Shown one piece after another: positions 20,993-50,305 of a stretch of DNA of 64,000 bases. The position numbers and the translations under genes are program-made. Where the stretch lies: NCBI RefSeq assembly GCF_037975245.1, contig NC_092572.1:18871989-18935988 (forward strand), written 5' to 3'. How positions within the stretch are numbered: position 1 is the stretch's first letter; each line of letters starts with the position of its first letter. The notes under the pieces were generated by a model. That model saw nothing but the letters and a program-made list of their open reading frames with translations. It was not told where the DNA came from and made no database searches. Source of the stretch: Apostichopus japonicus. Its lineage: Eukaryota; Echinodermata; Holothuroidea; Aspidochirotida; Stichopodidae.

Positions 20993-21157
20993 TACTTTAT
21001 TTTTACTTGGCTTCGATATATTTGTTGTGTTTCTCAATTTCTTTATCAATAACCTATTATTGTATGTACCACATTTCATCCAAAGGCGCCATATTTACTA
21101 TAGGAAAATATTTTGAAATCATTTTCCTGTTGCCTTGTCTAGTTTGCCAAATATTGC

Positions 21158-21158
<1 letters not shown>

Positions 21159-21228
<70 letters not shown>
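21159..21228. repeat. (TA)n microsatellite at left edge of duplicated segment A
   Basis: About 35 uninterrupted TA units. Sequence to the right matches the region after the (TA)n of 55175-55244. Sequence to the left does not match. The edge of the duplicated segment therefore lies inside this tract. Confidence 0.95.
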
Positions 21229-21233
<5 letters not shown>

Positions 21234-21287
21234 TGGTATTTTTGTTTACTTCAATGCATGATAGCTGGGACTTTGGTTTACCTCGGG

Positions 21288-21311
21288 GATAGGTTTACCT
21301 GACACCAGGTA
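21288..21311. repeat. 10-bp inverted repeat with 4-nt loop
   Basis: GGTTTACCTG-ACAC-CAGGTAAACC. The same hairpin lies in copy B near 55307-55330, and more GGTTTACC/GGTAAACC words surround both. It probably belongs to a small foldback-type repeat. Confidence 0.75.
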
Positions 21312-21329
21312 AACCTAAGTCTAGGGTCT

Positions 21330-23140
21330 TCTTGTTCAATCAATTTCACTTCCTTTGAGGAATAATTATTTCGAGTTAAGAGAAAACCTCATGAACTTTT
21401 CAATTCCGAAGTTACAAAAAAAAAATCGTTCATTTAAAGGGTAAAATTTCCCCTCAAAAGTGGAGGTAATTCCGAAGGGTATATAACAGAATTACGAACA
21501 TGGTATATATGTTGATCCCAACTTTACACCTCGATTTTGACCAAATGCGGCTATATATAGTTCCGAAACTTACAGGTTCCTCTAATTACACTGAAATCTT
21601 CGTGTTTGTACTTTTTCTTCCATTAATTTGGGATATTTAAGAAAATAAGAGTTTCTATTTTAACTGGCAAATTTACACGTAACGAAACAACGCCCCCACA
21701 CATAAGCAGTTCTTTCTGTGTTCGGTGGTAGGGCAGTCGATCGGATCGTATCGTTGCTATCCCAATAGCCTACATTCAACGTTACTTTATGTGGGCCTAG
21801 CCATGTAGTCTACAAAGGAAAGTGCCGCAGGTTACCGTAAACGTTTCCCATTTGAAGTTGGCTTTTGGAACTTTGGTGGAGTATATGCATTGTAAGTAAA
21901 TTCCTTAAAAGTGTTCCGGATATATTAATAACATTTAGAGTAAATACCTTCATGCTGAACACAAATAAAGTAAGACCATGGTTAGAGTTAGAGTAGACTA
22001 GCCTAGGTCTAACGTTAGCCCTAAATTGGACCTAGGGCCTATCAGTATTACTGGCTATGGTAAATCACAGCTGCCTGCTACTGCCTTTGCTGATACTCGG
22101 AATATAAAATGTGATAAATAAATTAAAGTATATACTTGTAACAGACTGGTCAACCTACACATTTTGCAGCCTGGTGATCTTCCAGATCTTTTAAAGTAAA
22201 GGCTTAATAATTGACGCACCTCCAAGTATTACTAGGCCTACTAGGCTAGTACTACTATTACTATACTAGCCTACTACTACTGTACTGTAGCTAGTACTAG
22301 CAACTATACAGCAGGCAACCATAACTTTTTGCAGCCAAGCAGAGTTAAATATTTCATGAGTTTGAATCCATTTCAGGTATATGCTGATCAAATTGTGTTT
22401 GTGCATGTTTTGGGGCTTTTGGAAATCTTACTCCCTAAAAATAACCAAAATTACCTCAATATAATACCACTAATCTCTGGGACCTGACCTTTCTGAGGCT
22501 AGAGGCTCAGAGCATAGCAAACAGCATCCAAAGATAATGGATGTTTACTTAGGCCCTTCACTACAGTAAGCTTATCGACAGATGTGTCAATTTAGGGGTA
22601 TGAAAGAACTTGCATTCGTGCGATGCAATTTTGAACCATTTCACGAAATATAAATCTTTGGGTATGTCGCAATCTCTCTGCCATAAAATAAGGCAGTCAG
22701 AAAATCACAACTCCACAAAAACAGATACACAAGCAAACGGAACACTACAGTAAAAGAAAGGGCCTGATAGATTCCATAAACGAGTTACAAAAGTAAAAAA
22801 TGTGAAAACGTTTGCCGTCTCAGTACAATATTCATCCCCACAATATTCTCTATACTGTATGTGTTAGTGTGCATCACTTAGCCCTGTGCGTACAGTAGTA
22901 GTGGTGTGTCATTGGTTCTGATTCAGAGAACTAAGTCACACAGGGCCTCAGTGTAGCAGTGTACAACAATTTTTTGTAACATGAGTTTTTTCCCCCTGCA
23001 CCTATGGGATGAATCATGGCTGAAGGTAAACAATTGAGTATTCATTTTAGAATAACAACGCAATCATGGCTAAGTAATTTAGGCATTTTGATATTAACGT
23101 TATGATGTGGGTAGTGTTAATAGTGCTGAAGTAATAGCTT
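21330..23140. other. Non-coding part of duplicated segment A, with a truncated TIR element
   Basis: No gene seen. From about 22195 to 22610 the sequence resembles the element at 53590-54187, including its left end GGCTTAATAATTGACGCAC. It lacks that element's right end, so it is a truncated member. Confidence 0.5.
22853..22859. other. Putative transposon excision footprint TACTGTA (TA in copy B)
   Basis: Copy A reads CTCTA-TACTGTA-TGTG, while copy B at 56907 has only TA at this place. A 5-bp C(A/T)GTA insertion at TA is the canonical footprint of Sleeping Beauty-like Tc1/mariner excision. Confidence 0.55.
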
Positions 23141-23142
23141 GA

Positions 23143-23378
23143 TCAAAAGTATTCCTCAAAGTCCCACAATGCCTTCACAGGGTGACCTACTGTACAGTCA
23201 CTTGAGCACTTAGGAGTTTTTGCGAAAAGAGCAAATTCCTTGTCCAAAATTGCTAGGTTTGATCCAGTTTTACAGAGTCCCATAACAAAAAAACACAGTC
23301 TGTGATATATCAATGGAAAAGTGTAAAGATTCAATGTAACATATTTGAAAGGATTAGAGTATGTTGAAAAACCACCAG
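23143..23378 (-). CDS. Probable last exon of an unidentified host gene, copy A
   Basis: A minus-strand frame starts after an acceptor-like TTTATTTCC...ATGCATAG and runs 78 codons to a TGA at 23143-23145. The translation looks coding, with GLCKTGSNLAILDKEF and CTVGHPVKALWDFEEYF at the end, but I do not recognise the family. The same frame is open at 57197-57432 in copy B with only a few substitutions (for example Cys to Arg and Trp to Gly). The 13.8-kb transposon lies just upstream in the direction of transcription and so would be in the preceding intron. It could also be a chance open frame preserved only because the duplication is young. Confidence 0.4.
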
Positions 23379-23970
23379 CTATGCATTTTAAGGAAATAAA
23401 CAGTACCTCATTGAACCTTGCATTGTGTTCACACTAATGAGTTATGAAATTGTTATCAGTGTCTTCATCATTAAAAGCTATTAATTAGGTTGATCAATGG
23501 TCTCACATATTAGTGCAATCACAGAGGTTAAATTTCAATCAGGTTATAATGCCAAGGGAATCCAGACCTACTTCATAAAAAAAACAAATTCATGGCTCCT
23601 ATAAAAATCATTCATGATAAAAACCAGCATACATACAGTATGTGCAACTAAAGCAGTTTCATATTGGGTATCATGTCCAAATAAAAGCTCTTGATTGTAT
23701 TCAGTTTTCATACTTTTAAAAATGACCATCTGTGTGCAGTAATTTGGTGTTAGTAAGTAACATGAAAATGCACAAGACTAATGTTCAACAGGCACTAGAT
23801 AGTTCTCATGTCCATAGCACAAACCAGGGAGTTGTTCCATTACAACTCCCTGCACGAACAGGCTATTATGATCAGAGTTGTTATGGAACAAATAAAACTC
23901 CCTTGTATGATGTTAGCACTGTACTGTGTGACAAAACACTTAAATGCATACATGTGGTAACATGTTGCTA

Positions 23971-24400
23971 CACTGTTAAAAAAAAATCCGTAATTTTACG
24001 GTAAAAGTACTGGCAGCCAGGACGCCGGTGCTATTCTGTAAAATAACAGTTTTCGAACGTAACGAAATTAAACGTTAATACCGTACAGTTATTTAACGGT
24101 TTGTAAATTACACCGTATTGCTGTAATTTTACGGCAATCGTACAGTTTTAGCATTGTTTTTTAACAGGGAAATGCCACGTCATTTTACGGGTGTACCGTT
24201 ATTTGACGGGCCAAAAATCACGGTGTAATACCGTAATTAAACTGCAAATTTACGCAGTGAACAGTAATTTAACAGGGAAATATATTAATTAACGGTTACT
24301 TAACCGTAACGTTATATAACGGTGAAGGGACTGGCAGCCAGGACGCCGGTGCAAATTCTGTAAAATAACAGAAAACTAACCCACTGTAAATTAACGGTAT
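23971..24400. repeat. Left subterminal repeat region of the CACTA-like element
   Basis: Contains many copies of short words such as CCGTAATTTTACGG, TTTAACGG and GTTAATACCGT. A longer unit starting CTGGCAGCCAGGACGCCGG occurs twice (about 24011 and 24331). CACTA transposons carry such subterminal arrays as binding sites for an element-encoded protein. Confidence 0.75.
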
Positions 24401-24409
24401 ATATGTATC

Positions 24410-25330
24410 ACCACAACACACAGTAGAATACACCTACACGAATGAAACTGTTTTTACTTCAACTTTTTTTTATTAACTTCTTTATTAACGATAGTAATGT
24501 TATCTTTTTTTATAGATAAAGGATACAAGTTATATTTTGCTTGACTGTAACTAACTTCTAAACATATGACGCATACTTTCTTATTACAGAAATGACCATA
24601 AAAACACATACACTAGTTATTTTCAAATTATTTCCTCTCAAAACTTACATCTTACCTTTACCTAACTGACCAACAGGCTTTTTCAATTAATGCTCTGCAG
24701 CTAAACTTTGAAAATTGTTTAAAAAAAAAACTACTACAACTATAGGCAAAATCATGTCACATGCAATTACATATACAATCAAGACCTTTAAACAACTGGA
24801 TACCTATCACAAACAAAACATATTAATCATTCTAATGAGGCAAATGAATATAATCATTCAGTTACAAATATGTCTCTATTAGCACAAAAGATAATAACAA
24901 ATAAATGAAGGAACAAACAATAAATGCTATAACATACTGTTATTTGTGTTCAATTAAGTAACCCACTCAACATGAAACTATAAAACAATGAAACCCCCAC
25001 TTATTCAGAAGTTTCTGTTAGATGAAATATGAAAATTTTTTTTTAAGAAAAGTAGTATTAAATCCTTTAATGGCTTTCACACATTGCAAAGTTGAACAGA
25101 ACTAAAGGAGAAAAATCTATTTAACTTCATCAGGGGTGGTGGGGTGATAGGCATGTAATATATTAGGGAGCAATGCCTCTGTGCAGGTGTGGTTTTACTG
25201 CACTTCTTTTATTTCCCTTCTGTGATAGTACACAACAAGGTAAAAGTTCTATTATGAGCACAACCGCAGACTGCTCCAACACAGGAAAAAAGGAAGGGAG
25301 AAAAAGATGAAACAGCCAGAGCATTCTCTT
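24410..25330. other. Left non-coding arm of the CACTA-like element
   Basis: AT-rich, no gene. Minus-strand AATAAA signals at about 24477-24486 and 25207-25212 (TTTATT on the plus strand) could end the transcript of the second gene. Confidence 0.5.
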
Positions 25331-25339
25331 GACAATGTC

Positions 25340-26540
25340 TCTGAAGATGTCAACTTACACCATATTTGCTAAAACTATATCAAGCTTCATAAATTTTTTC
25401 CTAACCTATCTCAACAAAAAAGACAGCAAATGTTTGAACGCACAATAACATCTGCAGTATAATGACCCCACTTGGAGTGTTACCTGTGACACCTAATGAA
25501 TTCATACTGACCACTTCCTGTAAGTCTCATGACCACTGTAGAGAAATTCAGGAGAGTACAGTTCGATGCCTTTCTCTTTTGAAAAGCATTTTATATGCTC
25601 CATATTACACTTACGAACTATTTCAACATATTACCTATCTCTAACACCAATAGGCGAATGGACTTTCCTATAGCTGAGTTGCCTTTCTGCCAGGTGGATT
25701 AACTTCTAACTATATCAAGCATTATAACATATGAAGTTCATAAAATATCAACAAAACTATTACAAAGATGAGCCATTTTGCATCAGCATCAGAACCAAAA
25801 CTTCATGGACCATTAATAAATAATTTTTCCTAAACTCTCTCAACAAGTTTTGTGATCCCTCACATACTGTACATCTATAATGACCACATACAACATAAGT
25901 GTTACCTGAGACCTCAACACACTTCATACTGATCCCTGCCTCTAAGTTTCACAACCACTAATATGTACACACTGAATGTGGAGCATCAAGTTCAATCATG
26001 CAAAGAACAATCCTAAACTAAAATGCCTACAGATTATTATGACCAAATATCAACTGTATCAAGCATCATACTTGCAAAAGTTAATGAAAATAAAAACAAA
26101 CTGTTAAATCAGAACCAATATGCAGTAAACGCCTTATCATAACTTTTTCCTAAACCTCTCAACAACTCAAAGACACAAAATACTGTGATGACTGACTAAC
26201 ATCTACAGTATAATGACCCCAGATGGAGTGTTACCTGTGGCCTCAAACTAAAGAGCACATTTAAATTGACCACTGCCTGTAAATCTCATGACCACTGTAG
26301 AGAAATTCAGGAGAATACAGTTCGATGCCTTCCTCTTTTCAAGTTTTGTGATCCCTCACCACACTTCATACTGATCCCTTCTTCTAAGTTTTATATGCTC
26401 CATTCACTTTCAAAGTCTTTCAACTTATTACTGATCCTTAACACAATTGGGTGGATGGACTTTCCTTTAGCTGCTTTGCCTCTTCCTTCAGGTGGATTAA
26501 TTCCAACAATGAATCTGGTCAAGAAAAGATAAACCATTAC
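25340..26540 (-). repeat. Threefold degenerate tandem duplication at the 3' end of the second transposon gene
   Basis: Three related blocks begin near 25380, 25800 and 26130, each with a TTTTCCTAA...CTCTCAACAA start and a block around AATGACCAC..GTGTTACCTG. The third holds the real last exon (26391-26514). The first holds a decayed copy of that exon (about 25583-25700), with the same GGAAAGTCCAT and GAGCATATAA words but broken reading. The second lacks it. Confidence 0.75.
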
Positions 26541-29500
26541 TTATACATACATACATATATAGGGTAGTATATTTCAAAGACAATTTTGTGATGATCCCAG
26601 ATTTGCCCAATGCATCAAGCCCAGGAACACACTAACTATGGGGGAATGTAAAGTTTTAAATCTGCAGACCATTCCACATTTAAGCACATTTGTGCAAAGC
26701 AACCTATTTATGGGTGTATTCAAAAGCCTATTGAATATCTTTGTCAGCAGGAATGAAAACATTTTATTGTTCTTTGCTGCTGTTCATTTATTACATTCAC
26801 AGGAAGATTTTTAATCAAGTATTACAGTAACAAAAGCAAATTCCATGCACTCAAAACTTTCTTTTCAGAAACAATGCTTAGCCAGCCTCCTTATAAATAT
26901 GCATGATATCAATTGTAACACACATCAGCATGTGTAGGCTATCTACTAATATCACCAAACTAATTTTGAAGAAATTTAAAGTTATAGGTTGCAAAGTTAT
27001 TGCATCAAGATATTGAAGCTTGACCCAGGGAACTCATTACTAATCATGATATGATCACCATAATCAATCTGGGTTCATCTATTTACTATGGGTCACCCCC
27101 TCCACTTATGCGCATCACCCTGAAAGCACAGGTTCCTTTGCCAATTTGTACCTCAGTGGGAATGAAATGACTACTCCAGTCCACACTACAATACTAATGT
27201 TACATCAATGGTGCCCATCAACATCCTCACCAGTGTAACTTTTGGATACAAAGCAATTTGTGGATAACACACTGGGCACAAATCTTTATAGAAATATTCC
27301 CCATAAAAACTTCTCTCTTTACTAGTTTAACCTTAACAAATTAGTATGGATTCAGATAGGTTCCTGTCAACAGTTATTAGCCCTACCCCCCCCCCCCCAA
27401 ATGAAATTTGAAGGCCTAGTTCAACAACTTATTATAATATTTCACTGAGCAGCACTACAACATTACCTTTGAATAAATTCGGCAGTAGCTGATGCGTTAA
27501 AAGGGTATTCAAGGTTGAATACATAAAACGCACAGAACCACACACACAGAGCATCTATCGGGTTGTTTACAGTTGTGATGAACTGCCCGTCTACAGCAAT
27601 TTGGAACCTTGTTGCTTCCCATGGTTCTCCTGAAATGGAAGAAAAGCAATGACACTATGTAGCCATATTTGATCATGAAGAAAAACAATTGTCTTAATTG
27701 ACCACTTTTCTCTATTATGTTTTTTATATGACTTAACTACAGTATACAGCACATTTTACATATAAAAAATATCTACAGTACCAGGAGGGGCTCCAAATAA
27801 TTTTTGGGCTGCTTTACTGATGACGGGGGCCCTTTTTGGTTTTGCGAGGGCTGTTTCTCCTGTATAAATTGTAGCAACAATTTGATTACACTTTACAACA
27901 TTTTATCAGTAAAATTTATTGTTTGTCCGGTATATCTGGGTCCCCGGGTACTTTTAGGCAGATTTCCCATTGACTTAGTGTGGTGTTAGGCTACCATGTT
28001 GTCACGGATAACAGCAATAACCAAGGTACCTATCCTGAGCGACATACCCGGTTCCTAATTTATTACCCAAATCCTACGCAAAGTGTGATTTAAAAAACAA
28101 AAAAAACAATTGCAAACCAATGGTTAGGCAGATTTCCCATTGACTTAGTGTGGTGTTAGGCTACTATGTGGAAGAAAATATTATTTATTCATTCGTTTAT
28201 TTCATAGAAGAGAAGGCTGACAAGGAATTTATGAGATGTTTCTGGATTAAAGAGGGGATAACTAAAAAATAACAACTGCAAGTGGCTTTTTACTAATTAT
28301 TTTATTCCAAATGCGATCAAATTGCGCGAATCGCGCGGCTAATGCGAACCCTGGCCCTGCATAATAGATAAAAGTAATAACAACTGTTTAAGAGCTAAAT
28401 TAAATATTTATATGGTCTGATCCAATAGACGTGGAGAGCAAGCATAAGCAGCAGGAACAGTGTGATGTTACTGTAGTAGTAATGTTTATTACATGAAGTT
28501 ATTAACAAGTTAATGAAAGAAAAAAAACAAATAGAAATTATTGAGGAAGGTTTTATACCTTATAAATCTTACACATACGTATTTGAACATGAAAACATTG
28601 TCAGTAGAGCATATAATTCATTTGTTATGACATCCAATATGTAATTTCTTGAAAATCTTGAAACACGAGGTAAAACATTTTTTTCCAGGTACCCTGACAC
28701 CCACCTAGCTGGGAGAAAAAAAATACAAAATACACTGGTGTGCGAAAATGATCACGCAAGGAACCGATATTTTTTCAGCTAGCTAGATGGTGTCTGAGCA
28801 TACGTACAAACCAAGCTGCTATATTATAACAAAAGGATCTGCAGTCAGAGTGTTTTTCAGTGATTTTTTTCAGTCTTGTGTCATCTTCTAAATGTGCGGC
28901 GCCCGTTGACTGTACTGAGCAGTACATGTGGAGTGCGATTTTAGCAGTATTTGCATTCTTTTTTTGCCCTTGTGATTTCTTTTCTGGGACGATTTTTCAA
29001 CTTCCTAGGGCGAATCCCCCTTCGCCCCGTCTATTTTGAGCCTTGGCACCGACTACCAGGACACTGGTAAAAATACCCAAAATATGATGTTTACCCCCTT
29101 TGCAATAATGTCACTTACCAGCTGTAACAACACACGGGGTGCCAGGTAAAGCAAGTTCCCCAGAAGCTTGAGATCCAGGTTTCTTAAATTGAAATAAAAG
29201 TAGTTATTGAAACTTCTGCTCACTATATATATATATAATGGCTTCAAGGGTAAAAGAAGGACCAGTTGTACAGTGTAGACAACATTTTAGGTTTGATTAA
29301 CTCTCCTTTGACTTTATGCAACACCAACTTGCTCTTTGACCCCTACATATGATAAACACCAGGGGCCACATGAAGATATTTTAAGTACTGCTGTATTGTT
29401 ACAGATGTGCAGTATATACTCTGTGGTTATAAACTTGTTTTCTGTTCAGATTGTGAGTGAACAGAGTCCAAGTTTCATGAAAGGTTAAAGGTGGGTTACA

Positions 29501-32363
29501 TATGATTGTGCAACATGAGGTCAAATGGCAATTCGAAATATTAGGAGCCATTCTGCAACTTTGAAGCCCAAAAGGCTAATTCACTCATATATAGATGGAA
29601 TTTTCTTTAATCTACTGGGAGAGGATAGTTGATTGCCCTACAGTAGACAAGCAAAAATGAGATCATGACAGTGGCACATTTTCAGGGAAAGTAAAAAAGC
29701 ACAATTTCTGTCTCAGTTCACAGTTCGATAACTACTGAAGAATATGCAACTTACTTTGACAAAAATTGCTGCTGTGTCATCATCAAAGTATCTGCATAGC
29801 AGAATCAAGGAACCAATAATCTTTGGCAAGCTGTCACCATTACTTTCCATCACATCCTTGATAGAATGCAGGGTCTGCCTTAATCTCTGAGTAGTAGATG
29901 CCTGCTGCTCCAAGAACCTATAGAGAGTTGGTATCTTCTTTTTCGCTGACTCCTCCACTTTCTCCTTCAAGTTTACTCCAGTTAATGTACTGAAATGATC
30001 GAGCAGGTAGGCCTCCTCAAAGAGATATGGCCACTTTTCCATGAGCTCAACAAGGACACAGTCTTTACTGTTTATCATGTTTCGTTGGCTGGTATAGGTC
30101 AGATTCATTAGTTCTTTGATATTAGCACCCTGCTGACCAGATTTGTGGAGTGTTTGCAATTCCTCCATTTTTTGCTGTTGTGTTTTTTCAGTTTCCCCAG
30201 CCGGAAAAGTATCCGGTTGCCAACTGATGCAGCCATAGCTGTCAGTTTTTCTCTTTTTGGGGGGAGTACTATCATTACTCTGAGACGCTCTCTTGAAAGG
30301 ATGGCTACCTGGCAGTCGTGACAAGTTATCTGCCCTATTAACTAATTGAGCCAACAAACTATCGTAGCCAGATCCAACATCATCTTTAAATGACTCAGGG
30401 TGCTCTGCAACTATTTTTTGAGCCAGCATCCTTAACTGCTTTTTTCGAGGTAGAGAAGAAGGTCCTTTGTGAAAATGATCAATTATAATTCTAATCATTT
30501 CTTTTCGCAGTCTAGGTGTTGGTCGTTTTTTTCTGGTCAGTGATTCCGTCAATTGTTGTGGCATTTTATGCCAGGGTATGTCCCAAGTTTGATTCCTACC
30601 AAAAGCAATCTCCTGATCAACTGAGGACTCTGACGAAGATGATGGTGAAGATGATGCTGAGCTTTGTATCTGTTTTTTTCCCATTGTCGTCTGCGTCACA
30701 ATCTTCACACCTGCCCAACAGAGATTTTTGTCATTAAAAACACTGAAAATTGGAATGGATGACTATCATTACTACACACAAACTGGTTAAAAAATGTCTT
30801 TTTTACATCAGAGAATTACTGCATTGTGTATATTAATTAATAATGTTCATTGAAAGCTAACATGTCATCATGAAAAAAAGTTAAACAGGAAAGTCAAATG
30901 ACTTTGTGATTCAATGCCGAGATAAGACCAGAATGCAATACTGCATTGTGGTTTCAATGATGCTTGAAGAATAATCTTATGAATGTGACATACTGTAGAC
31001 TATAGCCATGAACAGCTACAGTATAGGATGAACAGCTTCCCTTCTTGGGATATATTGTTTACAATGTTTTCCTAATTTGACTATCTTGAATCTCAACTGA
31101 CCTCTAGCAAAACAGTAGGCCACTTGTACTCAATGTTGAAAATAAATACTTAATTTACTAGACTATATACTAGGTTTCAAAACTTGATCCCTGGTGAACC
31201 CAAATGACCTTTTACCACCAAAAACAATAGGATGATGACAGGCTGTTTTATCAGATGTAGGAAGTTAAGTATTCCCAACCCTTGCAATTTGTGTATACTA
31301 GTTACTTACTATTAACTAGATTATCTATTGAAAGGAATTTGTACAATCTTGAGTTAGGAACTTACTGAGCTATTATACAGTGGTCTAGCACACATTCACC
31401 ACCATGAATAGCATTGTACCGATAGCTTTACCCCCCCCCCCCCCATATCATGTCAGTGGTGAATCGCAACGCTGGTGAGTGCAAAATCTGTCTACATTGC
31501 AGCATATTGCACTACTCCTTGTGTAGTTACATCGATCGTCAACAAGGAACCCATTCCACACAGTTTCTACAATGAAGTACTGTACAGAGGTTACTGTAGT
31601 CAGGAGGTCCATTTTACTGTAGCAATGTCTTGTGCCATAGATAAATAGTGCTATTGCAATGTTGGGCACATTTTCTGTCAAGTCCTAATTATTAGTTATT
31701 TATGAGTTACAAATTTGCATTGTAAAGATCTGTTTGAGATACAGACATATAGGTCTATTGGTTTGCAAACTTTTGGCATATAATATTGATTTGTGTAAGG
31801 CCATTTAAAACATTGCAGGCAAATGGAAATTACAACTTACTGAGAAATTAACATTCTTTTACTTTAAAGAAAATCTGTATTGGCCCTAAATTATAGCAAG
31901 CTATATTAGCTAGTTTTCAAAAAGTGCTTTTCTGGTGGTCGAGCTACTCTCCAAATTGGTCTCAGACATTTTACATGAGCACACAAGATGACAAATTGTC
32001 CCAGTGAGGTAAATTTTCTCCAGGTGATAATGAAAACTGATAAAGAATTTGAAAATCTGGCATATTTGGGGCCAATACAACATACCTCTAAATTAGAAAA
32101 TGCAACTTACCAGTATTTCTCCAATTGCAGATCAGTTTCCTCACTTCTACTGCAGTCAGTATGTGGCTGATATCACTTTCCAACACAAATTGTAGATCTT
32201 CTGTAGACACAACACCAACCATCTGGGGGTCTATCAAAGTCTCAACCAGCTGAGCAAGTTTGACTGCCCCTATTTTGGGCAGCACAAACAGAATTGCATC
32301 TTCTATTTCAGACAGCTTGATGGTGTCACTGTCGCTACTACTAGGTGAATTTTCTGACTGCAT
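26391..32363 (-). CDS. Second gene of the CACTA-like element, five exons, 519 aa
   Basis: Minus-strand exons: 32363-32111, 30710-29755, 29182-29119, 27629-27467 and 26514-26391. Every junction is GT-AG (donors GTAAGT, GTAAGT, GTAAGT, GTAATG). The exon lengths 253, 956, 64, 163 and 124 sum to 1560, giving 519 codons plus TAA with no internal stop. Residues 1-85 resemble a SAM-like helical domain (SEIEDAILFVLPKIG...LTAVEVRKLICNW). 86-403 hold a serine-rich then basic segment with a possible nuclear signal (PPKKRKT) and a helical region. The C-terminal 110 residues include CVVTAG, an FYVFNLEYP block and FIVGINPPEGRG. I recall similar transposon-linked proteins in fish but cannot name the domain. 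It may be an accessory, TnpA-like DNA-binding protein. An acceptor-like ACATTTTAG at about 32384-32392 suggests an upstream non-coding exon. Confidence 0.8.
27956..28164. repeat. 40-bp direct repeat inside an intron
   Basis: A block of about 40 bases beginning TTAGGCAGATTTCCCATTGA occurs at about 27955-27993 and again at 28123-28164, 165-170 bases apart, within the fourth-exon-side intron of the second transposon gene. Confidence 0.8.
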
Positions 32364-32680
32364 CTTGTTTTTGTGTTATATCTAAAATGTTCAAGAAGTT
32401 TCTAAATAACTGGCGAAGCCCACTACTGTATGAAATGTATCTTGAATTAATGCACAATGTTTCATTGCAAAATTAAAAAAACACAGCTAGTGTTGGGCAC
32501 TATTTCAAACAATAATAAACTGCTTTCTACACATATCTTAATTTGTTGCTAGTTGCTACCATGTACAGTATCTTAACTTTGATGCCTTATTCTCTTGCAC
32601 CAACTTTCAAATCAATGGAGACAAACTTACAGCACTTTTTTCTTATAGTTAGCCTACTATATGTACTGTCAGTATGTGTC

Positions 32681-35446
32681 TTAAATCTGCAATGCTGGCT
32701 TATGTTTTAAAGTTACCATTGTAACACCATTAACCCTATACCCTAACAAAGGATAGTGGTCAAGAATGATTTTAAATGGTACACAGGTAACAACTGACTC
32801 ATTTAAGGAGGTATCAATTTCATAAATCCCATAATCTGAGAGATAATGGTGGGAGTGGTTCCGTACAACAAAATAGACACATCCTTGAGAAAGAAGAACT
32901 AACAACAATGAGGCAAATTTAATAGTCCCATTATCACCTGCTAATAAAAGAAACATCCCTTTTTTGTACTTTGTGCCAAACATCAAAACTTCATCAGAAA
33001 CTGAACAACCTTCTGTTTCCGCCATCTGGCTTTCAAATATTGCCTGTCTAATCTGCAATGAATACAGATCTACATGAAATGGCATTTCTTTCAAAAGTTG
33101 TATTTGCTCTGGAAACAACTGGCCATTAGAACAAAATGCTTGTAATAGCTGATGCTTCTGTGCCAAAGTGGAGGTGATATTTATGAAATTTTGACTATAT
33201 CTTGCACATCGTTTAAAGAAAGAATGCTTACTTTCAAAACGCAATGTCCATAATCTTATCAATGGGCCAAACATGGTAATGAGCCAATGGTAGTGACTTA
33301 GGAAATGATGTTTAGGGCGTAAAGAACAATTTGGAAACAAATCTGTTCGTTCTTCCAGATATTCTTCAACAAGAACTTTGAGATAAGCAATCTGAGATTC
33401 ATGAAGACAGGGGCTAACAACAATTTCCACTATATCTTTTAACTTTATGCAAAGCTGCCATACAGCATCATCTGCATCCTTTACATTTTTGAAAGCAACT
33501 AGTGGAAAAAATCTGAGGAACCACCAATTTTGTACTGCCTGTCCTCCAATTTTCTTTCCCTTTGAAATAGCTTTTAACATGTTGGCAGCATCAGGACCAT
33601 GAAATGGAAACTTATTTAGGTTTTCATTCAATAAGTCATAGGTGAACCACTTTTGTTTCACGAAGTAATCTATAAACAAGGCTAAATCATAATCTACGAG
33701 GCCTTCAAAGAGATCATGACCAAGGCACGGTGGCAATCCTGGTGCAGCTACATGAAAGTGTGACAAAGAATTAAACACAGAGTTGAACTTAACACCGTCT
33801 ATGTGATCATTTTCACTTTCTTCTAGTAACTGGATGGTTCTCATGTGTGTTTCTTTAGTGCGATAAGGGCCTTCTATGTAATGTTTACCTTCACATATTT
33901 CGGATTTTGATAAACTACAGTAACGACAAAAATATTCTGCATTAAAACTTTCACAGAAGCCTCCAATGTAATGGGATCCTAGGTTATCACCAGTAATTGA
34001 AACAACAGTGCCTTTAAGTAACTCTCCTGTATCTAGTATTATGCCTGTTTCTTCTAAGCACTTCAGGTCTGTAAGAAGTTTTGAAAATACCATTTCCTGT
34101 CCAGCTTGCTTAATTAACTTTTCCTTACAGAGAAGGACTAGTTGTATTGGGTCAATTATTGACCTACATCTGGGATCCAAGTTACCAATTGTATAATACA
34201 CTGCCAATACTTTATGTTTTGTTCTGGATGATCCAAGAGGGTTTACAACTTCAAAACTATCCTGAAAAAGGATTATCTGTAAAGCAGTTGGGAATTTCTT
34301 GAAAAAGTCATTCTGCTGGAAAACATGTCCATTTTGGATATCAGAGTATAAACCATCTTCTCCTCTAAAATGGTAGGTGTGGTTGATATTTCTATTTACC
34401 GAGCTATTTTCACAAAAACATTTTAAGCTTTCAAGTATTGGTACATAATGACAAAACTGCATTTTACCAGAGACACTTTCTACTAGTGGTATTGCCACAG
34501 GACTAATTACATTAAACTCCCGAGTAAAATACAACTTCCGAGTATACGAGGAACGCAAAACTCCAAGATCTGGAGATTGTATATTTGGTGTTAAAGGACT
34601 AGGAGCAAGAGAGCACCACAACATGGACATTTCATCAGAAATGATCTCTAGCACAAGTCTATTTATTTCCTCTTTGCTCAGTATGTTCAAAGCATCTAGC
34701 TTTGTTTTCAAACATTTTTCGAAATTTTCACAGGTCATTTGATTCAACAGGTACAACTCTTCTACAATTTCTTGAATTGTCGACTCTGGTATAAGATTCT
34801 TTGACTGGAGTTTTAGCAGGAAAAGGGCTACAGATTTTGTAAATTCTGCAACAGGAGTTTTGGTATTGATATCCTCATCATCACTTACTATATCTGGTCC
34901 AGACATGCTTCCATTCATGACACTAGATAGTGAAGAAGTTTCTTCTTCAAGACATTGACTTTCATTTGCCTGATTGATAACATATTGTGCATCTACATTT
35001 TGAATATTGTAATTTCTATGATACCGTGATACATGTGAAGAAAATGAAGACTTAATGTGAAATTGTCTACCACAATCTTTAAATGGGCAATTGACTTTCA
35101 GACCACTATCAATATGCTGTCTTAGGTGAGCCATGAGCTCCTGAAAGTTGACACACTCACGCTGGCAAAAGTCTAATGTACACCGAAAACTAAAATCATT
35201 ACACTGATATCTGTGTGAGAATGTTTCCATGTCACTATGTTGCCTAGATATGTGCGATGTAAGCCCTTTGTAAGAATGACAAACCTGACCACAGCCTTCA
35301 ATATAACACGTAAACGAAACGTTTCTATCATGTCTGTGACTCCTAGAATGCTGAACATACTTTGTTATAGTTTCAAATCTAATATTGCACAACAAACAAA
35401 CAGGTCTAGGCCTCTCACGTTTAGTAACAGACTGAATTTCTGCCAT
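32681..35446 (-). CDS. C2H2-finger transposase-like protein of the CACTA-like element, 921 aa
   Basis: One uninterrupted exon runs from the ATG at 35446 to a TAA at 32681. An upstream in-frame stop precedes the ATG. Four C2H2 fingers fill the N-terminus: C17-C20-H33-H37, C47-C52-H65-H70, C89-C94-H107-H111 and C120-C125-H138-H143. An acidic linker follows (about 160-200). The core carries QDSFEVVNPLGS (D396), TGDNLGSHYIGGF (D487), CRYC (507-510), GLPPCLGHDLFEGLVDYD (570-587) and LRFESKHSFFKRCA (735-748). D396, D487 and E581 or E738 are candidate DDE catalytic residues of the CMC (CACTA-Mirage-Chapaev) type. The third residue is uncertain. It is predicted to act in the nucleus on the element ends. 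The next gene begins 317 bases downstream on the same strand, so both may share one promoter by alternative splicing. Confidence 0.85.
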   Translation of the reverse strand: MAEIQSVTKRERPRPVCLLCNIRFETITKYVQHSRSHRHDRNVSFTCYIEGCGQVCHSYKGLTSHISRQHSDMETFSHRYQCNDFSFRCTLDFCQRECVNFQELMAHLRQHIDSGLKVNCPFKDCGRQFHIKSSFSSHVSRYHRNYNIQNVDAQYVINQANESQCLEEETSSLSSVMNGSMSGPDIVSDDEDINTKTPVAEFTKSVALFLLKLQSKNLIPESTIQEIVEELYLLNQMTCENFEKCLKTKLDALNILSKEEINRLVLEIISDEMSMLWCSLAPSPLTPNIQSPDLGVLRSSYTRKLYFTREFNVISPVAIPLVESVSGKMQFCHYVPILESLKCFCENSSVNRNINHTYHFRGEDGLYSDIQNGHVFQQNDFFKKFPTALQIILFQDSFEVVNPLGSSRTKHKVLAVYYTIGNLDPRCRSIIDPIQLVLLCKEKLIKQAGQEMVFSKLLTDLKCLEETGIILDTGELLKGTVVSITGDNLGSHYIGGFCESFNAEYFCRYCSLSKSEICEGKHYIEGPYRTKETHMRTIQLLEESENDHIDGVKFNSVFNSLSHFHVAAPGLPPCLGHDLFEGLVDYDLALFIDYFVKQKWFTYDLLNENLNKFPFHGPDAANMLKAISKGKKIGGQAVQNWWFLRFFPLVAFKNVKDADDAVWQLCIKLKDIVEIVVSPCLHESQIAYLKVLVEEYLEERTDLFPNCSLRPKHHFLSHYHWLITMFGPLIRLWTLRFESKHSFFKRCARYSQNFINITSTLAQKHQLLQAFCSNGQLFPEQIQLLKEMPFHVDLYSLQIRQAIFESQMAETEGCSVSDEVLMFGTKYKKGMFLLLAGDNGTIKFASLLLVLLSQGCVYFVVRNHSHHYLSDYGIYEIDTSLNESVVTCVPFKIILDHYPLLGYRVNGVTMVTLKHKPALQI

Positions 35447-37560
35447 TTGTAATTTAGTCGATTCAACATGAGGATTTAATTACCAATTACCCTTGCTAGG
35501 CGGTTGGCCTGCATCACAAGGTTAAACAATAGTGTAGGTGAATGGGTATAGGCTGGGCTACTGCCCAAGTTTCTGAAATACATTGTAGTCCCTAGGTCAC
35601 TTTTGCTATTTATTACTACTAGTACTAGGCCTCACTTCGGTATCAAATTCAAACAATGAATTACACAACTTTACAAAGGTAGGCTAGGCTGCTAACCGAG
35701 GGTAAAACATATGAATTATCCCCTAACTGGTGTGATCTATTAATATTTTTGTATGCACTGTTATACGTTAACTTAGAAAGTGTTAATCTAACTTTTCTAT
35801 GACCCTGCATGAGCCGTCCTAGTGTAACGTTAGACTAGGCCTAGCTTACTTCTGCACTGCCCTTGCTTACGTTAAAATGAGCCTGCCGGACGTGTGTTAG
35901 GCCAACGCTATAGGCTACACTGAATCGTTAGGCTAGGTAGGTTACTTAGGCTCATAGTCATACTAGCTACACCTTTGTTATATTTTCCCAATATATTTTT
36001 ACATAACACAAACAAAAAATCCAAAAAATCTACCCACGAGAATTAATCAAATGTTGAAGTGAGCGCCACCAAAATATTATTGAAAAGAAGAAAGTGGTCG
36101 ACGAAACGTCAGTCATACAAATTACAATTTACGAGGTATCCGAGTCAACGTCTTCACATATAACCACTGAGTGTATAGATCAGTGCATATAACCGACGCG
36201 ACGATGGGCCGGGCGTGCAATGTGCGTTGATTATACCCAATGCCGATAACTTTCCACTAAACCACAGTTCATAGTAGAAACATATCATATAAAAAAATCA
36301 TATATGATGAAACTTGCTCTGTTATATCGTATGAACATCTGCAACAATTATTTATATTAAATATTGTTAGTAAAATTGTATGCTATATAATAGAATTGTT
36401 CATAATATCGAAAATAGTTATCTAAAGATAATGTTTAAAATAAAAATGTAGAAACATTATTACACATTTGCCGCCAGTTCTCAACCTCCACGTACAACGC
36501 AACAACGATGGCGCAATAATTTAAGACCAATCACTGATCGGTATATTTAGGACCAATCAGATCAGAGCTTACTTTTTAGAGCAGGTGAGATTTTAGCCAA
36601 AAAACATGGGCGGAGATACCGGCATTTTACAATTTGCCAGTGGAAACAAACACGTATAGTGCTAAGCTGGGCTCTACTGATGGTAAAAGTTTACCTCTGA
36701 ATAGAAAACTTTGTTAAGTCTAGAAAAATGTGTCCAATTGTCGCACAAAATTGAACATTTGTGTACAAAAACCTCATTATTACGGCTCAATTTACTGGAA
36801 GCCTCTTGCAACTGCATGTACCAATTACGTTTGTGGGAGGGTGGGGGGGGGGGGGGTTCATTCCACCTGTTCCTATCCAGTATCATAAAACCTATATGAT
36901 TGGACTTTCTATTACTGTACCTATAGGAAAGTATCTACAGATAGCTGTACGTATTTCGTTTGCATCGGGGTTTTTTCGACTTCGCGGATCTCTTCAATAT
37001 ATAGGAGAATATTAAGATTTTTGTTACTTTGACTTATTTGTGAACAACTCATCATTTTAACAATTTTCAGTGTCACTTTAGTGAATGCAATCGTGTACTT
37101 CATGAGTTTAGAAATATGCGTTTAGTACATGTCTCTTCCACGCTTTCGTGGGAAGCTGGTCGTAAAGGTGCCAAATGTCTTGACGACCACCCCCCCCCCA
37201 CCCCACCACCATCCTCCAGACCATCCAAACATACAACTATAAAATCGACGCCGTTCCTGTATGGATATTATGAAGCCTCTGTTCAATTGCGATTGATATA
37301 GGAGTGACCAATTGCAATATTTTGACAAAAACCACCAAGGGGAACTTGCTGTAAAGATGGTACATGGGTATAAATTTGAGAGGTTTTATGGAAAATAATA
37401 TTATAATGTATTTTAAATAAAGACAGAAACCAAAACGTTTTATTGTATTTAAGTAGTGTATGGAGGTAACTGAAACGGAATTGTCTTTTTTTTTATGTAC
37501 AATAGGTAAGGGTGGGGGTCAGTTATAGTGTTGTCCATTATGTACACAAACAGAGGCCTG
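35447..37560 (-). promoter_or_regulatory. 5' region of the transposon genes, no further coding sequence seen
   Basis: This 2.1-kb stretch lies upstream of the transposase start and reaches the right subterminal repeats. Any promoter must lie here, but I cannot point to a TATA box or start site. It contains poly-G (36841-36855) and poly-C (about 37190-37200) runs. Confidence 0.35.
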
Positions 37561-37569
37561 CAAAAACGG

Positions 37570-37799
37570 TTATTTTTGTTAGGAATCGTAAATTGACGTG
37601 GTATGTCTGTCGTAATTTAACGTTAATAGTAACGTAAATTAGTAAAAACGTTTTTTCTTGTTAACTTACGCCGAAAAAGTTGTAAAATGAACTTCTTTCG
37701 TAATTTCACCAATATTTTGCCGTTTTTTGTGAAAACGGGTAATCGCCGTTATATTTACGGTGAAATTCGAACGTAAAATCACTGTTTTTTTTAACAGTG
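37570..37799. repeat. Right subterminal repeat region of the CACTA-like element
   Basis: Repeated CGTAAATT, CGTAATTT and ACGTTAATAGTAACG-type words lead to the terminal TTTTTTTTAACAGTG. They mirror the word content, but not the exact order, of the left end. Confidence 0.7.
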
Positions 37800-38955
37800 T
37801 ATGATCCGATACTAGCTGGTTGGGTGTATAAATAGATCACCATTATGCAAACTGCACTGCACATGGTTTCCATTATGTAATAAGTTTCATTTTATGAATT
37901 TGTCAATCTGACATGTATGCTACTGTACAGTATATGTGTAGGCTGCATGTACAACTTATTGTATCTTAATAATATACAGCAAAAAACTATTGAGAACTGT
38001 GATAAACAACATTTTCAAAGTGACAGTTGGGGATCTAAAAAGACCACTGAAAGCCTTCTGTAGCGATATAACATGATACTAAACATTATGTATCTCTGCA
38101 AGCTAGTGTACCCTGCTTTGAGATGTAATGTTTAAATAAGGTTTTCACAAGTTTGCCCTGTTGACCCAACCACTGGCCTAGACATACCAATAAATAGATC
38201 TATCCATGCTTCAAATTGAGTTTTCACAATTTGACCATATTTACCTAAATTTCCTTTGACCTTCACCAAAAACAATAGGCTTCTTGTACTTGTGATGCAT
38301 CTATACATACATACTGTATCAACTATGAGATCTGTCCAATAAAGCTTACTGTCATGAGAAACTGTGTTTACAAGCTAGGATCACAAACACAGTACTCCCA
38401 CCAACGCACACGCACACATATGCCATCGTGAGTGGAAAGTTTCAACATCATTGAAACCAAACATTAAAAATGAACTCAGTCATAATGCCAAAGTCTGTGT
38501 ACACGAGTACAGGTAGTCCTGAGCTTAAACCCCAAATGATACGTTGAGAGACTAAATGTACCGGTATACATAGTCTAGGGGTCTAGGTAATTTTTAAGTA
38601 AATGAACTGCATGCGGGATGAGGCATTGAACCATGCATGAATACTCAGTCAATCTCTTGAAGTGATTGCATGCTAAATTCCTGGGTACAACTTACATACC
38701 AAATAATAGATCAATATTCAAACTTAGTAGTGTGGCATTTTTCTCAATTGTTGCATATGCGGTTTCCATGAAAAAAGTGATAGCTAAATTAACTAAACTG
38801 ACATGAATATTGGACAACATGTACACTAAGTGTTGACATCAAATAGGGAACTGCACTGTCAAGACTTCCACCTGCAATTTATGAAACAATTATCTGGACT
38901 TATTTATGTTCATTCTCTTATCAGAAAAGATGGCTTAAATTTGGCACAATTTGAG

Positions 38956-39178
38956 GAATGCATGAATGCAGAATGAGAACACCACAGCAGATATGCTCCA
39001 CTTTATTGCAAGAAGTACAGGGCTGCAAATTTCAAGGTCGACACAGGATATCAAAATACTGTAACTTTGAGCTGCTGGTTCATGCTGACCATGGGATGCA
39101 GCGAGAAATGGCTTATATGGAAATAAGGAGCTCCCACAAGCATATATTGCAAACATCCCCAGTTGTCTTTAATATTCA
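38956..39178 (+). other. Coding-like plus-strand frame bounded by splice-like signals
   Basis: A 74-codon frame from 38958 is preceded by an acceptor-like CACAATTTGAG and followed at 39179 by GTAAGT. The translation (for example HADHGMQREMAYMEI) looks protein-like but matches nothing I recognise. The whole block is missing in copy B. Its direction conflicts with the minus-strand frames next to it, so at most one orientation is real. Confidence 0.25.
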
Positions 39179-39276
39179 GTAAGTATTGACTGTGAGATAT
39201 ATTTTAAATCCCTATGACCTGAAGTTAGTTTTCTAAAGTCTTCCCTTTAATATCCTCTAAGTCTGATCAACACACA

Positions 39277-40104
39277 CTATACATAATATAAATTTACTGT
39301 ACTAAGTTTCAACACGAACAAAGATGATGAAAATTTGCTGTTTATTTTCAAAAACTGTAAACGATCTAAGGCAACGGCTAACAAAGTAATGTAAGAAAGA
39401 CTTTCCACTTCCCACCAAGTCCACTGCCAAACCTTTTGTTTTACTTTGCTACTTCCACCATCATAGAATGTCATCAGAATTGAAATGACTTTATGTGAGT
39501 CTTTGAAAACGAAATGTACTGTAAATCTGCCATCTGGCAGACTGGAATGAATTGTAGGTAGGATTGTGAAGCAAAGACTTGAGGTGTTAACACACCATCA
39601 CATTTTAACCTTGATTATGATGTGTTTATTTGTACCTTTTGCAACAATGTCAATATCAAAATGTGAGGCTTTAAAAAAATATTTACATGGAATGTACTTC
39701 AGTGAAACTTTGACATATGATTGAAATGTTGTTTTGGTTTGTTGTAGGTTAACAAGAGCTGGTGGAATTTCTCCACAAGAGAAGGAAGTACTGTCATCAA
39801 TAAAATCTGCAGACAGAAGAATATTTTTACTGAAGATCAAAATTTTCAATGAAAGGAAAGGCTTTCGAATAAAATTGGACAAACAACTTCTGTAGATACA
39901 ATGAGGACTAGATTTATATGTCATTGCTTGGAGCCAGGTACGGTGCATTCTGTGAGTTTGAATTTTTCTTTTTAGTTTCTGGACAGGTATATGACATGCA
40001 GCATACAAATTAAAATTTGTTAATGAATTTTCTTCCTTCACAGCATCATAAAATTCATTATTAATAATCCATTTATACAAATTCTTATGTTGCTGTATTT
40101 GAGA
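39277..40104 (-). pseudogene. Coding-like minus-strand segment with one in-frame TGA, unidentified
   Basis: After an acceptor-like CTCAAATACAG, a minus-strand frame starting QHKNLYKWIINNEF (40104) stays open for about 168 codons. It meets a single TGA at 39598-39600, then continues in the same frame through LPDGRFTVHFVFKDSHKV and KVWQWTWWEVESLSY to about 39277. The composition looks genuinely coding, but I do not recognise the family. The TGA could be a null mutation, an intron boundary or an error. Copy B keeps only the first part (59133-59354) because about 950 bases are missing there, so copy B's version is certainly truncated. Confidence 0.4.
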
Positions 40105-40214
40105 ATAATTTTCGTTAGTAAAACAAAGATTTTAATCATATTCATTTAACTATTATTCATGTAACTCCCTTACTTCACTGTATCAAATAAAACATTGTTT
40201 CACCAATCCATTAT

Positions 40215-41505
40215 TCCAGTTGTTATACTGCTGGGAGGGGAGACACCAAGGTCTTTCAATACTTCAGTTACCCAATTAATGCTAAATAGACGCTCAATAA
40301 TGCTTCCCACAATGGGGATGTTGGGTCTAGCAAACCTTAAGTCTAGTGGACCCTCAATGTAATGGGCATCCCCCCCCCATGTTGGTACTGCATGTGGTAT
40401 ACTTTTGTTAGTGAAACTAAAAGTTTCATCCTAGTCATTACATTGAGGGATGCTCTTTATTAAACTCCCTTACTTCACTGCAGCGTATTGGTAATCAACT
40501 ATTCTAGTTGTAATGTTGCTAGTACTGTATTTGAGAATCCTTTTGTTTGTGAAACGAAGAGTTTAATGCTATCCATTACATTTAGGAGTACTCTCTAAGT
40601 GTCTACCTTCACAACATCATATAATAAATTATTAACAATCCATTATCTCTTTATATTTATGGCAGAGCTGTAGTCGAGTCCAATAAGCCAGAGCCCAATC
40701 CAAGTCCGAGTCCATCTGGTCTGAGCCAAATACAAGACCCCTCAAGTCCGAGCCGACTCCAGATACCAAAGATCACCTTTGGTAAAAATTCTTGAACTGT
40801 TATGATAATTATGCACCCAGGAGGAAATTTACCTCATGCTATAATTTTTTCGGACCTGATAAGTGGCAGCAAGCTCTTCCTGGTTCATAAATGTTATAAA
40901 ATTACTGGGAGGGGAGTCACCAAGGTCCTTCAATACTTACAGTTACCCTATAAATGCTAACTAGACGCTCAATAATGCTTCCCACAATGGGGGTGTTGGG
41001 TCTAGCAAACCTTAAGTCTAGTGGACCCTCAATATAATGGGCATCCCTCTTGTTGGTACTGCATGTGGTATCCTTTTGTTAGTGAAACTAAGAGTTTTAT
41101 CCTAGTCATTACATTGAGGGATGCTCTTTATTAAACTCCCTTTTTTCACTGCATCGTATTGGTGATCCATTATTTCAGCTGTAATGTTGCTAGTACTGTA
41201 TTTGAGAATCCTTTTGTTAGTGAAACGAAGAGTTTAATGCTATCCATTACATTTAGGAGTTAACTTTCTAAGTCTCTACCTTCTCAACATCATATAATAA
41301 ATTATTAACAATCCATTATTTTTTTATATTTATGGCAGAGCTGTAGTCGAGTCCAATTAGCCAGAGTCTGAGCCAAGTCCGAGCCCACTTGGTATGAGCC
41401 AAATCCAAGACCCTTCAAGTCCGAGCCGACTCCAGATATTCAAATATGATCACCTTTGGTAAAAATTCTTGAACTGTTATGATAATTATGCACCCAGGAG
41501 GAAAT
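40215..41505 (-). repeat. Tandem duplication of a ~675-bp unit, copy A
   Basis: Two units begin at about 40227 and 40900, each with ACTGGGAGGGGAG.CACCAAGG and ending in a TAGTCGAGTCCAA...GAGTCCGAG-type patch. Read on the minus strand, each unit contains a coding-like block (YIEGPLDLRFARPN, GSIIER, VTEVLKDLGVSPPSS). In unit 2 this block is disrupted after the GSIIERLVSI part. The same arrangement is in copy B at about 59505-60840, so it predates the larger duplication. Confidence 0.8.
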
Positions 41506-41735
41506 TTATAGGAAGTTTGTATGCAGGTGTATCATGTGCTGAGTGCTCTTAGCCAAGTCAAAGGTTATTTGAGGCCAATATAGGTAAAATCTGAAAACCT
41601 TCATGATCCCATACTATCTAGTATCTGACTAGTAGCTGCTTTAATAGCTGAATCTTAGGGCAATTAATATATTTATCAGAACAAGTAATGTACCTCAAAA
41701 GACTTCTTAAGCTCTTTTGAGCCCCATTCAATATT

Positions 41736-42000
41736 TCAGTGTATTAACTTCATCATTCTTTTAACAAATTTACTCCAAATTGCTAGTTTCATGTTCTGGC
41801 AATGAACCTTTGTCATATCATGTTGCATGAGTGCTGTAACTGGTTTACAAGCTTGCAAAAGTCTTAAAAGGAGGATAGGGTGTTGGGATAAATAGTTCAA
41901 AATAATATTAACAAAATTGTACCATATTTTGCTTTTCTTTTTTCCCATATGTTGCCACTGCTTGAATAAGACTAGTTGATAGGACTTTTTGTGAGCTCCA
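41736..42000 (-). CDS. Possible internal exon of the unidentified host gene, copy A
   Basis: A minus-strand frame from about 42000 (GAHKKSYQLVLFKQW) through SKIWYNFVNIILNYL and IWSKFVKRMMKLIH ends at a stop at 41736. Copy B keeps it open (61734-61998) with a few amino-acid changes. It has a coding-like composition but no recognised domain. The terminal stop in frame means that it would need a donor before 41736 or be a last exon. Confidence 0.3.
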
Positions 42001-42687
42001 CCTTTGACAACAAGGTACAGTAGACTTCAACTGCATCTTGTTGGCAACATCCTAGGAAAGTTTCAATAAACACAGATGTTTCTATAAATGAGGAATCTGA
42101 TGAACATTCCAATACTGCGAGTCTTTATTGGACATTTCAGCAGGAGGCAATAACCAATTCTGCTATCGTTACATACTGTAGGTCCTTCATAAAATGCCAC
42201 TTAAAGAACTGTATTACTTCCTTGGGAAGGTGAATTTTATTGTCAAATACAACATCTGTCAAATATTTAGTTTCCCAACCTGTCCAACTCCCCCCCCCCA
42301 CCCCTCCATTTATCCCGAGTAGTTTACAGAAACTGGGACAGAACATTTTTTGTGGGAAACAAGGTTAAATAATGTTGTTTGAGGTATTGAGCATTTATCT
42401 ATATGTCCCTTTCGAATCTAGATAGGAGGAAGTAGCAAACAATGCAAGGAAAACATGAAGTTCAAGTGGATGCTTTAATTGCTTTTACCCAAAACATTGC
42501 TATATTCATTGATAAATATAATCCACTTCAAATTCAGTACCGTTATACAACATGCAAAAGAGTTATGATATTGATGTACTTTCTGAATTTAGACCATTGC
42601 AGGTGAACAAGTTTAACATTGGTTTTTAATTTGACTGTATGTAGAAAACACCGGTTACATAATGAACCTCAGATACAATGTCGTGTA

Positions 42688-44021: not shown

Positions 44022-44731
44022 GTGTAAATACATATTATTACTGCTAGGAGCTGTTTAACAAACTGAAAGAAAAATTTATTACTTGACTATCAAGAGATTC
44101 GCAGAACTCCACTCCTTCAACAATATTTACAGTGGTGCAGACTTCAAAGCAGTGCAAGGGCAACAACTGCCTATCTCTTTAAGAAATTTCCAAGTGCTTT
44201 CATTTTTAGCATTTGCATATGTTCAAAAGAAAAATGACAAATTAAAAGATGTGGTCTTTTCAACATGTTACCACATCTCCCCCCCCCCCCTCTCTCCCCC
44301 ATCAAAAAAGTATTGCATGTACAGCAGTAACCCTTTTTGTACATGTGCAATATATGGGGCAGAGCCTTATTCATGACTTGACCAAGCCCTTTATCCATTT
44401 GAATAGCACAAGTTAAGTCAGTGGTATTCACATCAATGCCTCATAGAAAATGTGCCTCATGGTCAATTTTCTAGCTGATAGCATGAATGTGAATGAGCTG
44501 AAGTTGTAGAAGTTGCTTTGTTTATATATTTCTGAAAGTAACATGAAATTTCATATTGATTTTTAATGAAAATATTTGCATTTATCAGTAATAAACAGAA
44601 AGAAGACATAATGATTTCTGCTATAGTGTCTTATCTCTGCCTCTTATGTTAAATTTGTGTTCATTGGTTGGTCCTTGTACTTCGAACATATTGCTCCCTA
44701 ACTCAGCAAACCCATATTCGATCTGAAGATG

Positions 44732-45093
44732 CTAATTCAGACAGCTTACTGTTCTAGCAAGTTCTCGACCAATTATATTGATGAATTTGCATCTGGATGA
44801 ATTTGCACTGGATGAATTTGAATCATGCCAACTATGTAAGGAGCCATTTCTTTAAACCTTGCAAGACTGGTCTATAGAGTTTCAGCTAATTTAATACAAG
44901 CCGATCCATGAAGAATTCAAATACTGTGTAATCCTATCCTACTTCAAAGGTGTACGTGGTCGAAAGGTTTCCTAGTAAAATTACTGGTCCTTTCAGATCT
45001 GCAACTTCATCTTGAGAACTTCTTTTTGGTCACATAGTAGCTTGAAACAATTGAAAGTTGGAGACAGTACTTTGAAGATATGTGCTTCGGCAC
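44732..45093. other. No gene recognised
   Basis: Sequence after the part of copy A that can be compared with copy B. No coding sequence or repeat is seen apart from two short GGATGAATTTG-type repeats near 44796-44820. Confidence 0.5.
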
Positions 45094-45101
45094 CATGTAC
45101 C

Positions 45102-46225: not shown

Positions 46226-46229
46226 TGAG

Positions 46230-46930: not shown

Positions 46931-46939
46931 AGCTCTTTT

Positions 46940-49312: not shown

Positions 49313-49324
49313 CTATTTAGGTAT

Positions 49325-49840: not shown

Positions 49841-49853
49841 ACAGTATACTGTG

Positions 49854-50297: not shown

Positions 50298-50305
50298 ATA
50301 CTGTG

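Follow-up and report, generated by a model that had tools for sequence, protein, structure and literature searches.

A complete and probably autonomous CACTA/EnSpm-group DNA transposon in the sea cucumber Apostichopus japonicus

Introduction

A 64,000-nucleotide stretch of the genome of Apostichopus japonicus (GCF_037975245.1, NC_092572.1), hereafter referred to as the window, whose own positions are used throughout, contains a 13.8-kb segment that an initial annotation described as a CACTA-like transposon. This locus raises the question of whether the segment is a complete mobile element and, if so, to which superfamily of transposons it belongs. The evidence presented here points to a DNA transposon from the CACTA/EnSpm group (CMCT assemblage) that is complete and probably autonomous, a reading to which a probability of roughly 93% is assigned. 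A literature search found no paper on CMC-EnSpm DNA transposons in sea cucumber.

Boundaries of the element and its empty site

The element terminates in an inverted repeat, CACTGTTAAAAAAAA, located at 23971..23985 on the + strand and at 37785..37799 on the − strand, in agreement with the 15 identical terminal bases originally proposed. A TA target-site duplication (TSD), to which no strand is assigned, adjoins each end (23969..23970 and 37800..37801), as had also been claimed; the flanks read ...GTTGC-TA on the left and TA-TGATCC... on the right. The surrounding DNA forms a head-to-tail tandem duplication, in which unit A (21155..55171) contains the transposon and unit B extends from 55172 to approximately 73704, its last part lying beyond the end of the window. 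Within copy B the junction reads GTTGC-TA-TGATCC, and the empty site previously placed at about 58040 is thus located precisely at the single TA at 58036..58037. Because the joined flanks with a single TA occur in the duplicate, both boundaries are fixed independently of the terminal repeats.

Exact matches to CACTGTTAAAAAAAA occur twice in the window, both at the ends of the element, and one additional match carries two mismatches. When two mismatches are allowed, the resulting three matches are not above chance (7 of 100 shuffles reach three); the probability of an exact pair at the ends defined by the duplicate is approximately 2.5e-9 by base composition.

Copies and sister elements across the genome

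In the 671.6-Mb assembly of 35 contigs, the 15-mer CACTGTTAAAAAAAA occurs 76 times, compared with 51 occurrences of its reversed control, and many single matches may therefore have arisen by chance. Neighbouring 15-mers less than 30 kb apart form 14 convergent, three same-strand and no divergent pairs, whereas 1000 random placements yielded at most two convergent pairs. Sequences were retrieved for all 13 convergent pairs besides the window element. The pair on C14 (L035-L036) is a sibling that carries the two ends of the window element at 99.0-99.6% identity and contains a nested insert of approximately 2.1 kb in a TATATA tract, near the point corresponding to window position 29225. Eleven of the 13 pairs constitute a sister family with different subterminal sequence, whose members are 93.5-98.8% identical to each other.

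Pair C12a (C12:5997082-6022833, L032-L034) comprises two complete elements of the wider sister group, inverted relative to each other and approximately 1.9 kb apart, which share 99.966% identity over 11,925 bp (3 mismatches, 1 gap). In both elements the outer terminus carries the 15-mer exactly and the inner terminus a variant of it, and each is flanked by a separate duplication (TG in one, CA in the other). This pair is a very recent local transposition, and its inverted arrangement is a possible source of inverted-repeat RNA. An interpretation of C12a as a single 25.7-kb element without a duplication was considered and rejected, as it consists of two inverted complete elements.

Across the 15 two-ended elements, CACTG is present at both termini in every case, and a matching 2-bp duplication flanks 14 (TA in 10, TG in two and CA in two); in the count made before C12a was resolved, 12 of 13 pairs carried such duplications, with a binomial chance of 2e-13. 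The duplicated target is accordingly 2 bp long, but its sequence is not in every case TA, 4 of 14 being TG or CA. Neither genomic copies with other boundaries nor a grouping of the transposase with a superfamily of another duplication length, either of which would have spoken against the initial annotation, was found, and the C14 sibling ends in the same two termini as the window element.

The window element's own family is small, and the sister family is larger. A search with the right end (300 bp) located four occurrences, namely the window, the C14 sibling, C17:25563432-25563734 (94%) and, on C12, a piece of 59 bp. The left end (450 bp) has six: the window, the C14 sibling, C14:12212008-12212435 (96%), C12:5759410-5759857 (94%), which lies near the stop-containing remains of a transposase, C17:25551833-25552113 (in two pieces, 94%) and C21 (150 bp, 90%). 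The presence of both ends on C17 suggests that C17:25551833-25563734 is probably a third, older copy of approximately 11.9 kb. The proposed recent mobility is best evidenced by the sister elements, above all the near-identical C12a pair, and less strongly by the window copy itself.

The transposase

The transposase gene (32681..35446, −) is a single open frame encoding 921 amino acids (aa). Four C2H2 zinc-finger motifs (aa 17-143; 35018..35398, −) were identified by motif search and by Pfam on this stretch alone, where zf-C2H2_4 gives E 1.4e-6 and 29.0 bits against a cut-off of 27, although it falls below the cut-off when the whole transposase is scanned. They are followed by a core (aa 202-783; 33098..34843, −) that resembles, in catalytic signature and predicted fold, Transib and RAG1, the latter being the enzyme that cuts antibody genes. 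The catalytic signature of the core comprises D396, D487, C507, C510, H714, H718 and E738, and all seven residues are invariant in 10 of 10 aligned proteins, consisting of the window transposase and nine paralogs (27-56% identical to it) selected among 48 others so as to cover their diversity and to have open frames. When the set is widened to 17, near-identical copies included, the D and C columns are conserved in 17 of 17, and H714, H718 and E738 in all 15 sequences covering them. Compared with the residues of mouse RAG1 given in PMC4914335, the second D and the C are separated by 20 residues here and 19 in RAG1, the histidines are arranged as H-x3-H and H-x4-H, respectively, and the distance from H to E is 20 in both. 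The core is predicted to fold like RAG1 in a structural model with a predicted template modelling score of 0.60; a single-sequence AlphaFold model of the core, with a predicted local distance difference test score of 33.7, was not used.

A genome-wide protein search returned 58 matches which, after removal of nine second pieces, represent at least 49 transposase loci; 49 of 394 candidates were scored, so that locus counts are lower bounds. Twenty-two of the 49 are uninterrupted from query residue <=24 to >=915, and the others are partial or contain stops. An exact 15-mer lies within 20 kb of 29 of the 49 loci, and conversely 40 of the 76 15-mers lie within 20 kb of a transposase locus, compared with 0.23 on average at random. 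Pairwise comparison of five intact sister transposases gave a ratio of nonsynonymous to synonymous substitution (dN/dS) of 0.18 to 0.52 in 7 of 10 cases; two others gave 2.34 (one synonymous change each) and one showed no change. The changes being few, no use was made of these ratios. The comparison of the window transposase with L042 is saturated for dN/dS. Six transposase peptide patterns had no match in IMG/VR, and tblastn in phages returned just two records, at E 8.

At the C-terminus, a BAH-like domain (aa 781-911; 32714..33106, −) appears in the predicted fold only, and a profile of this region produced three unrelated PDB matches at E 0.55-1, leaving the tail without sequence support. 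It is doubtful that the transposase ends in a BAH-type chromatin-reader domain through which the elements would steer insertion or their own activity via histone methylation. Under this tentative reading, a single protein would bring together C2H2 fingers, a cutting core of the RAG1 type and a chromatin reader, and its 2-bp target would be limited to TA or TG/CA steps; if true, the tail would suggest a chromatin-guided transposase. A literature search found no paper joining BAH domain, transposase and CACTA.

Companion gene and subterminal regions

A second gene on the − strand is composed of five exons, located at 32111..32363 (starting with ATG), 29755..30710, 29119..29182, 27467..27629 and 26391..26514 (containing the stop), which four putative GT-AG introns join into an open frame of 519 aa. 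The earlier description of both genes as uninterrupted after splicing agrees with this. Neither Pfam (E up to 1) nor NCBIfam (E up to 10) yields a match to the companion protein. In the sister elements the companion follows the transposase in the same order and on the same strand, and exon 2 is recognizable at 34-35% identity in 9 of 11, the exon being split by an insert in C2 and partial in C7. The end of exon 4, FNLEYP...EFIQR in the window, reads LNIEYP...E-(F/L)IQR with small changes in all 11 sister elements scanned, a set that left out C12a. Because the companion is kept between families whose transposases are approximately 40% identical, its conservation indicates that it is a working part of the transposon. 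Similar endings may occur in uncharacterised animal proteins. Within a companion intron, a 46-bp direct repeat (98%) occurs at 27954-27999 and 28124-28169, 170 bp start to start.

The left subterminal region (23986..24406) consists of an array of near-palindromic units like CCGTAATTTTACGG and includes two copies of a 23-bp GC-rich repeat, ACTGGCAGCCAGGACGCCGGTGC, while the right region (37540..37784) contains the degenerate units CGTAATTTAAC and CGTAATTTCAC. With one mismatch allowed, the CCGTAATTTTACGG-like motif gives 18 matches in the window, of which 13 fall at 23988-24397, one at 37771 and four outside the element; the motif clusters in the first 430 bp of the element, and 12 distinct sites lie within its first 600 bp. 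Eleven sister elements share this asymmetry, the motif being richer at one end.

Classification and comparison with known systems

The CACTA/EnSpm-like assignment of the initial annotation is supported by the CACTG ends, the 2-bp duplications, the catalytic signature and the RAG1-like predicted fold. Subterminal repeat arrays, which mark the CACTA/EnSpm family, are present, as are short inverted ends of the form 5'-CAC...GTG-3' and a duplication within the 2-3 bp of this group, seen in the genomic elements and at the empty site in the window. According to PMC12730594, the CMCT signature consists of D, D and E, the second D and the E being separated by a stretch that includes C(2)C and H(3-4)H, an arrangement that the window transposase displays. 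Together, the signature and the modelled fold support membership of the CACTA-Mirage-Chapaev-Transib-RAG1 group.

Within this group, Transib duplicates 5 bp of its target, in contrast to the 2 bp here, and the likeness lies in the RAG1-like core fold of the predicted model. The companion protein also differs from the Transib, RAG1 and BbRAGL (also named ProtoRAG) systems in having no kelch or PHD profile (Pfam, E up to 1). Maize En/Spm has CACT- ends in common with the window element and also possesses subterminal repeat arrays, but it duplicates 3 bp. The succession of a transposase gene and an intron-rich second gene on the same strand may, by analogy, be comparable to tnpD/tnpA, although the proteins of En/Spm arise through alternative splicing of one unit, as stated in PMC1636069, unlike the two genes here. 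The animal EnSpm/CACTA element SmTRC1, one of the TRC elements, is similar in its 2-bp target duplications and several encoded proteins, and differs, by its description in the same paper, in having CCC ends, a 54-bp terminal inverted repeat and a length of 4.5 kb, as against CACTG, 15 bp and 13.8 kb; by this comparison, the C2H2 fingers and the possible BAH-like tail belong to the window element. Strongylocentrotus and Danio also have similar proteins, according to the authors of the SmTRC1 study (PMC1636069).

Several observations weigh against this assignment or against autonomy. Searches with CACTA profiles (Pfam, NCBIfam) gave no match to Transposase_21 or any other in the window element's own proteins. 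Transposase_21 (PF02992) and DUF4218, which are plant CACTA domains, match only paralogs, always under the Pfam cut-offs, the former in 3 of the 10 aligned proteins (best E 5.3e-4, 19.7 bits against 28.6) and the latter in 2 of 10, not including the window transposase. The core profile retrieved no PDB chain at E up to 10, a further difference from Transib, RAG1 and BbRAGL, and the whole-protein profile produced no RAG1 or Transib among the PDB matches listed (60 of 91), all of which concern the finger region. Of 5000 shuffled versions of the protein, 250 reproduce the spacing of the signature, which is weak by itself, so the case for the signature rests on invariance and fold. The splicing of the companion gene is deduced from sequence, the transposase of the C14 sibling is broken at codon 50, where it has a stop, stops also interrupt several sister transposases, companion exon 2 contains a stop in the sister copies C22 and C15, and the shortened element C15, flanked by AA and TA, is the one of the 15 without a matching 2-bp duplication.

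Alternative explanations

A distinct CMCT lineage in place of EnSpm proper, for instance a Mirage-like one or one corresponding in animals to the fungal ESTA elements, is rather unlikely. It would accommodate the preference for TA (10 of 14 duplications), a trait expected of ESTA or Mirage, the weak Transposase_21 matches, and the likeness to ESTA, an EnSpm-like transposase with TA duplications ('EnSpm-like with TA TSDs' in PMC12730594), but it fits less well with the CACTG ends and with the below-cut-off Transposase_21 and DUF4218 matches, though these lie in different paralogs. Moreover, ESTA is described there from fungi with TA, whereas the window group also uses TG and CA.

With regard to the history of the CACTA/EnSpm-group insertion, the most likely order is that A and B were duplicated first and the element then inserted into copy A. 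The two units differ by 111 mismatches and 27 gaps over 6659 aligned bases, with three gaps >=20 bp. It is unlikely that copy B is instead the other parental haplotype misplaced in tandem, in which case the empty site would be an allele and the insertion polymorphic. The 1.7% substitutions between A and B lie within the allelic divergence range of many marine animals, and assemblies can break at (TA)n tracts like those where the units join; such tracts are found at the starts of both units and at the end of unit B. However, as would be the case for a tandem duplication, unit B stays collinear with unit A over approximately 18.5 kb, and its end, like that of unit A, lies at a (TA)n tract. Precise excision, whereby both copies once contained the element and its loss from B left no trace, is very improbable: cut-and-paste elements can excise, and from the window alone a perfect excision is indistinguishable from a long-standing empty site, but there is no footprint at 58036..58037, no substitution occurs over 300 aligned columns to the left (which contain one 5-bp gap) or approximately 100 to the right, and one event fewer is required if the site was empty from the start. 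Finally, a Tc1/mariner-like transposon merely resembling CACTA at its ends is rejected, since Tc1/mariner inserts strictly at TA, and despite the TA of the window copy and of most other duplications, TG and CA each occur twice among the 14, the signature and predicted fold are RAG1/Transib-like, and the element spans 13.8 kb with two genes.

Proposed mechanism and significance

In the transposition process envisaged for the element, the 921-aa transposase would bind the 15-bp ends and the subterminal near-palindromic array via its C2H2 fingers and a RAG1-like DNA-binding region, perhaps assisted in end binding by the companion protein in a TNPA-like role. The RNase-H-like D-D-E site would then excise the element; inserted with a 2-bp stagger into a pyrimidine-purine step (TA, or TG/CA), the element would acquire the 2-bp duplication. 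With their open genes, defined ends and near-identical copies, complete animal elements of the CACTA group are candidates for a system that is active outside plants. The predicted RAG1-like core could serve as a test bed for DNA cutting and joining in the RAG1/Transib/CACTA branch, including why 2 bp are duplicated here and 5 bp in Transib.

Other features of the window

The tRNA and Rfam scans of the window gave no match. The duplicated units also differ outside the transposon. A tandem repeat of approximately 670 bp lies at 40231-41508 and 59509-60847, where unit B holds approximately 725 bp extra, and, judging from the matches, unit A seems to have two copies and unit B a larger number. Approximately 950 bp of unit A (38943-39901), without obvious transposon ends, are absent from unit B. 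Three consecutive adh_short (short-chain dehydrogenase) genes, presumably sepiapterin-reductase-like, are located at 9663-10478, 15636-16460 and 20165-20992, the third being broken by an in-frame stop.
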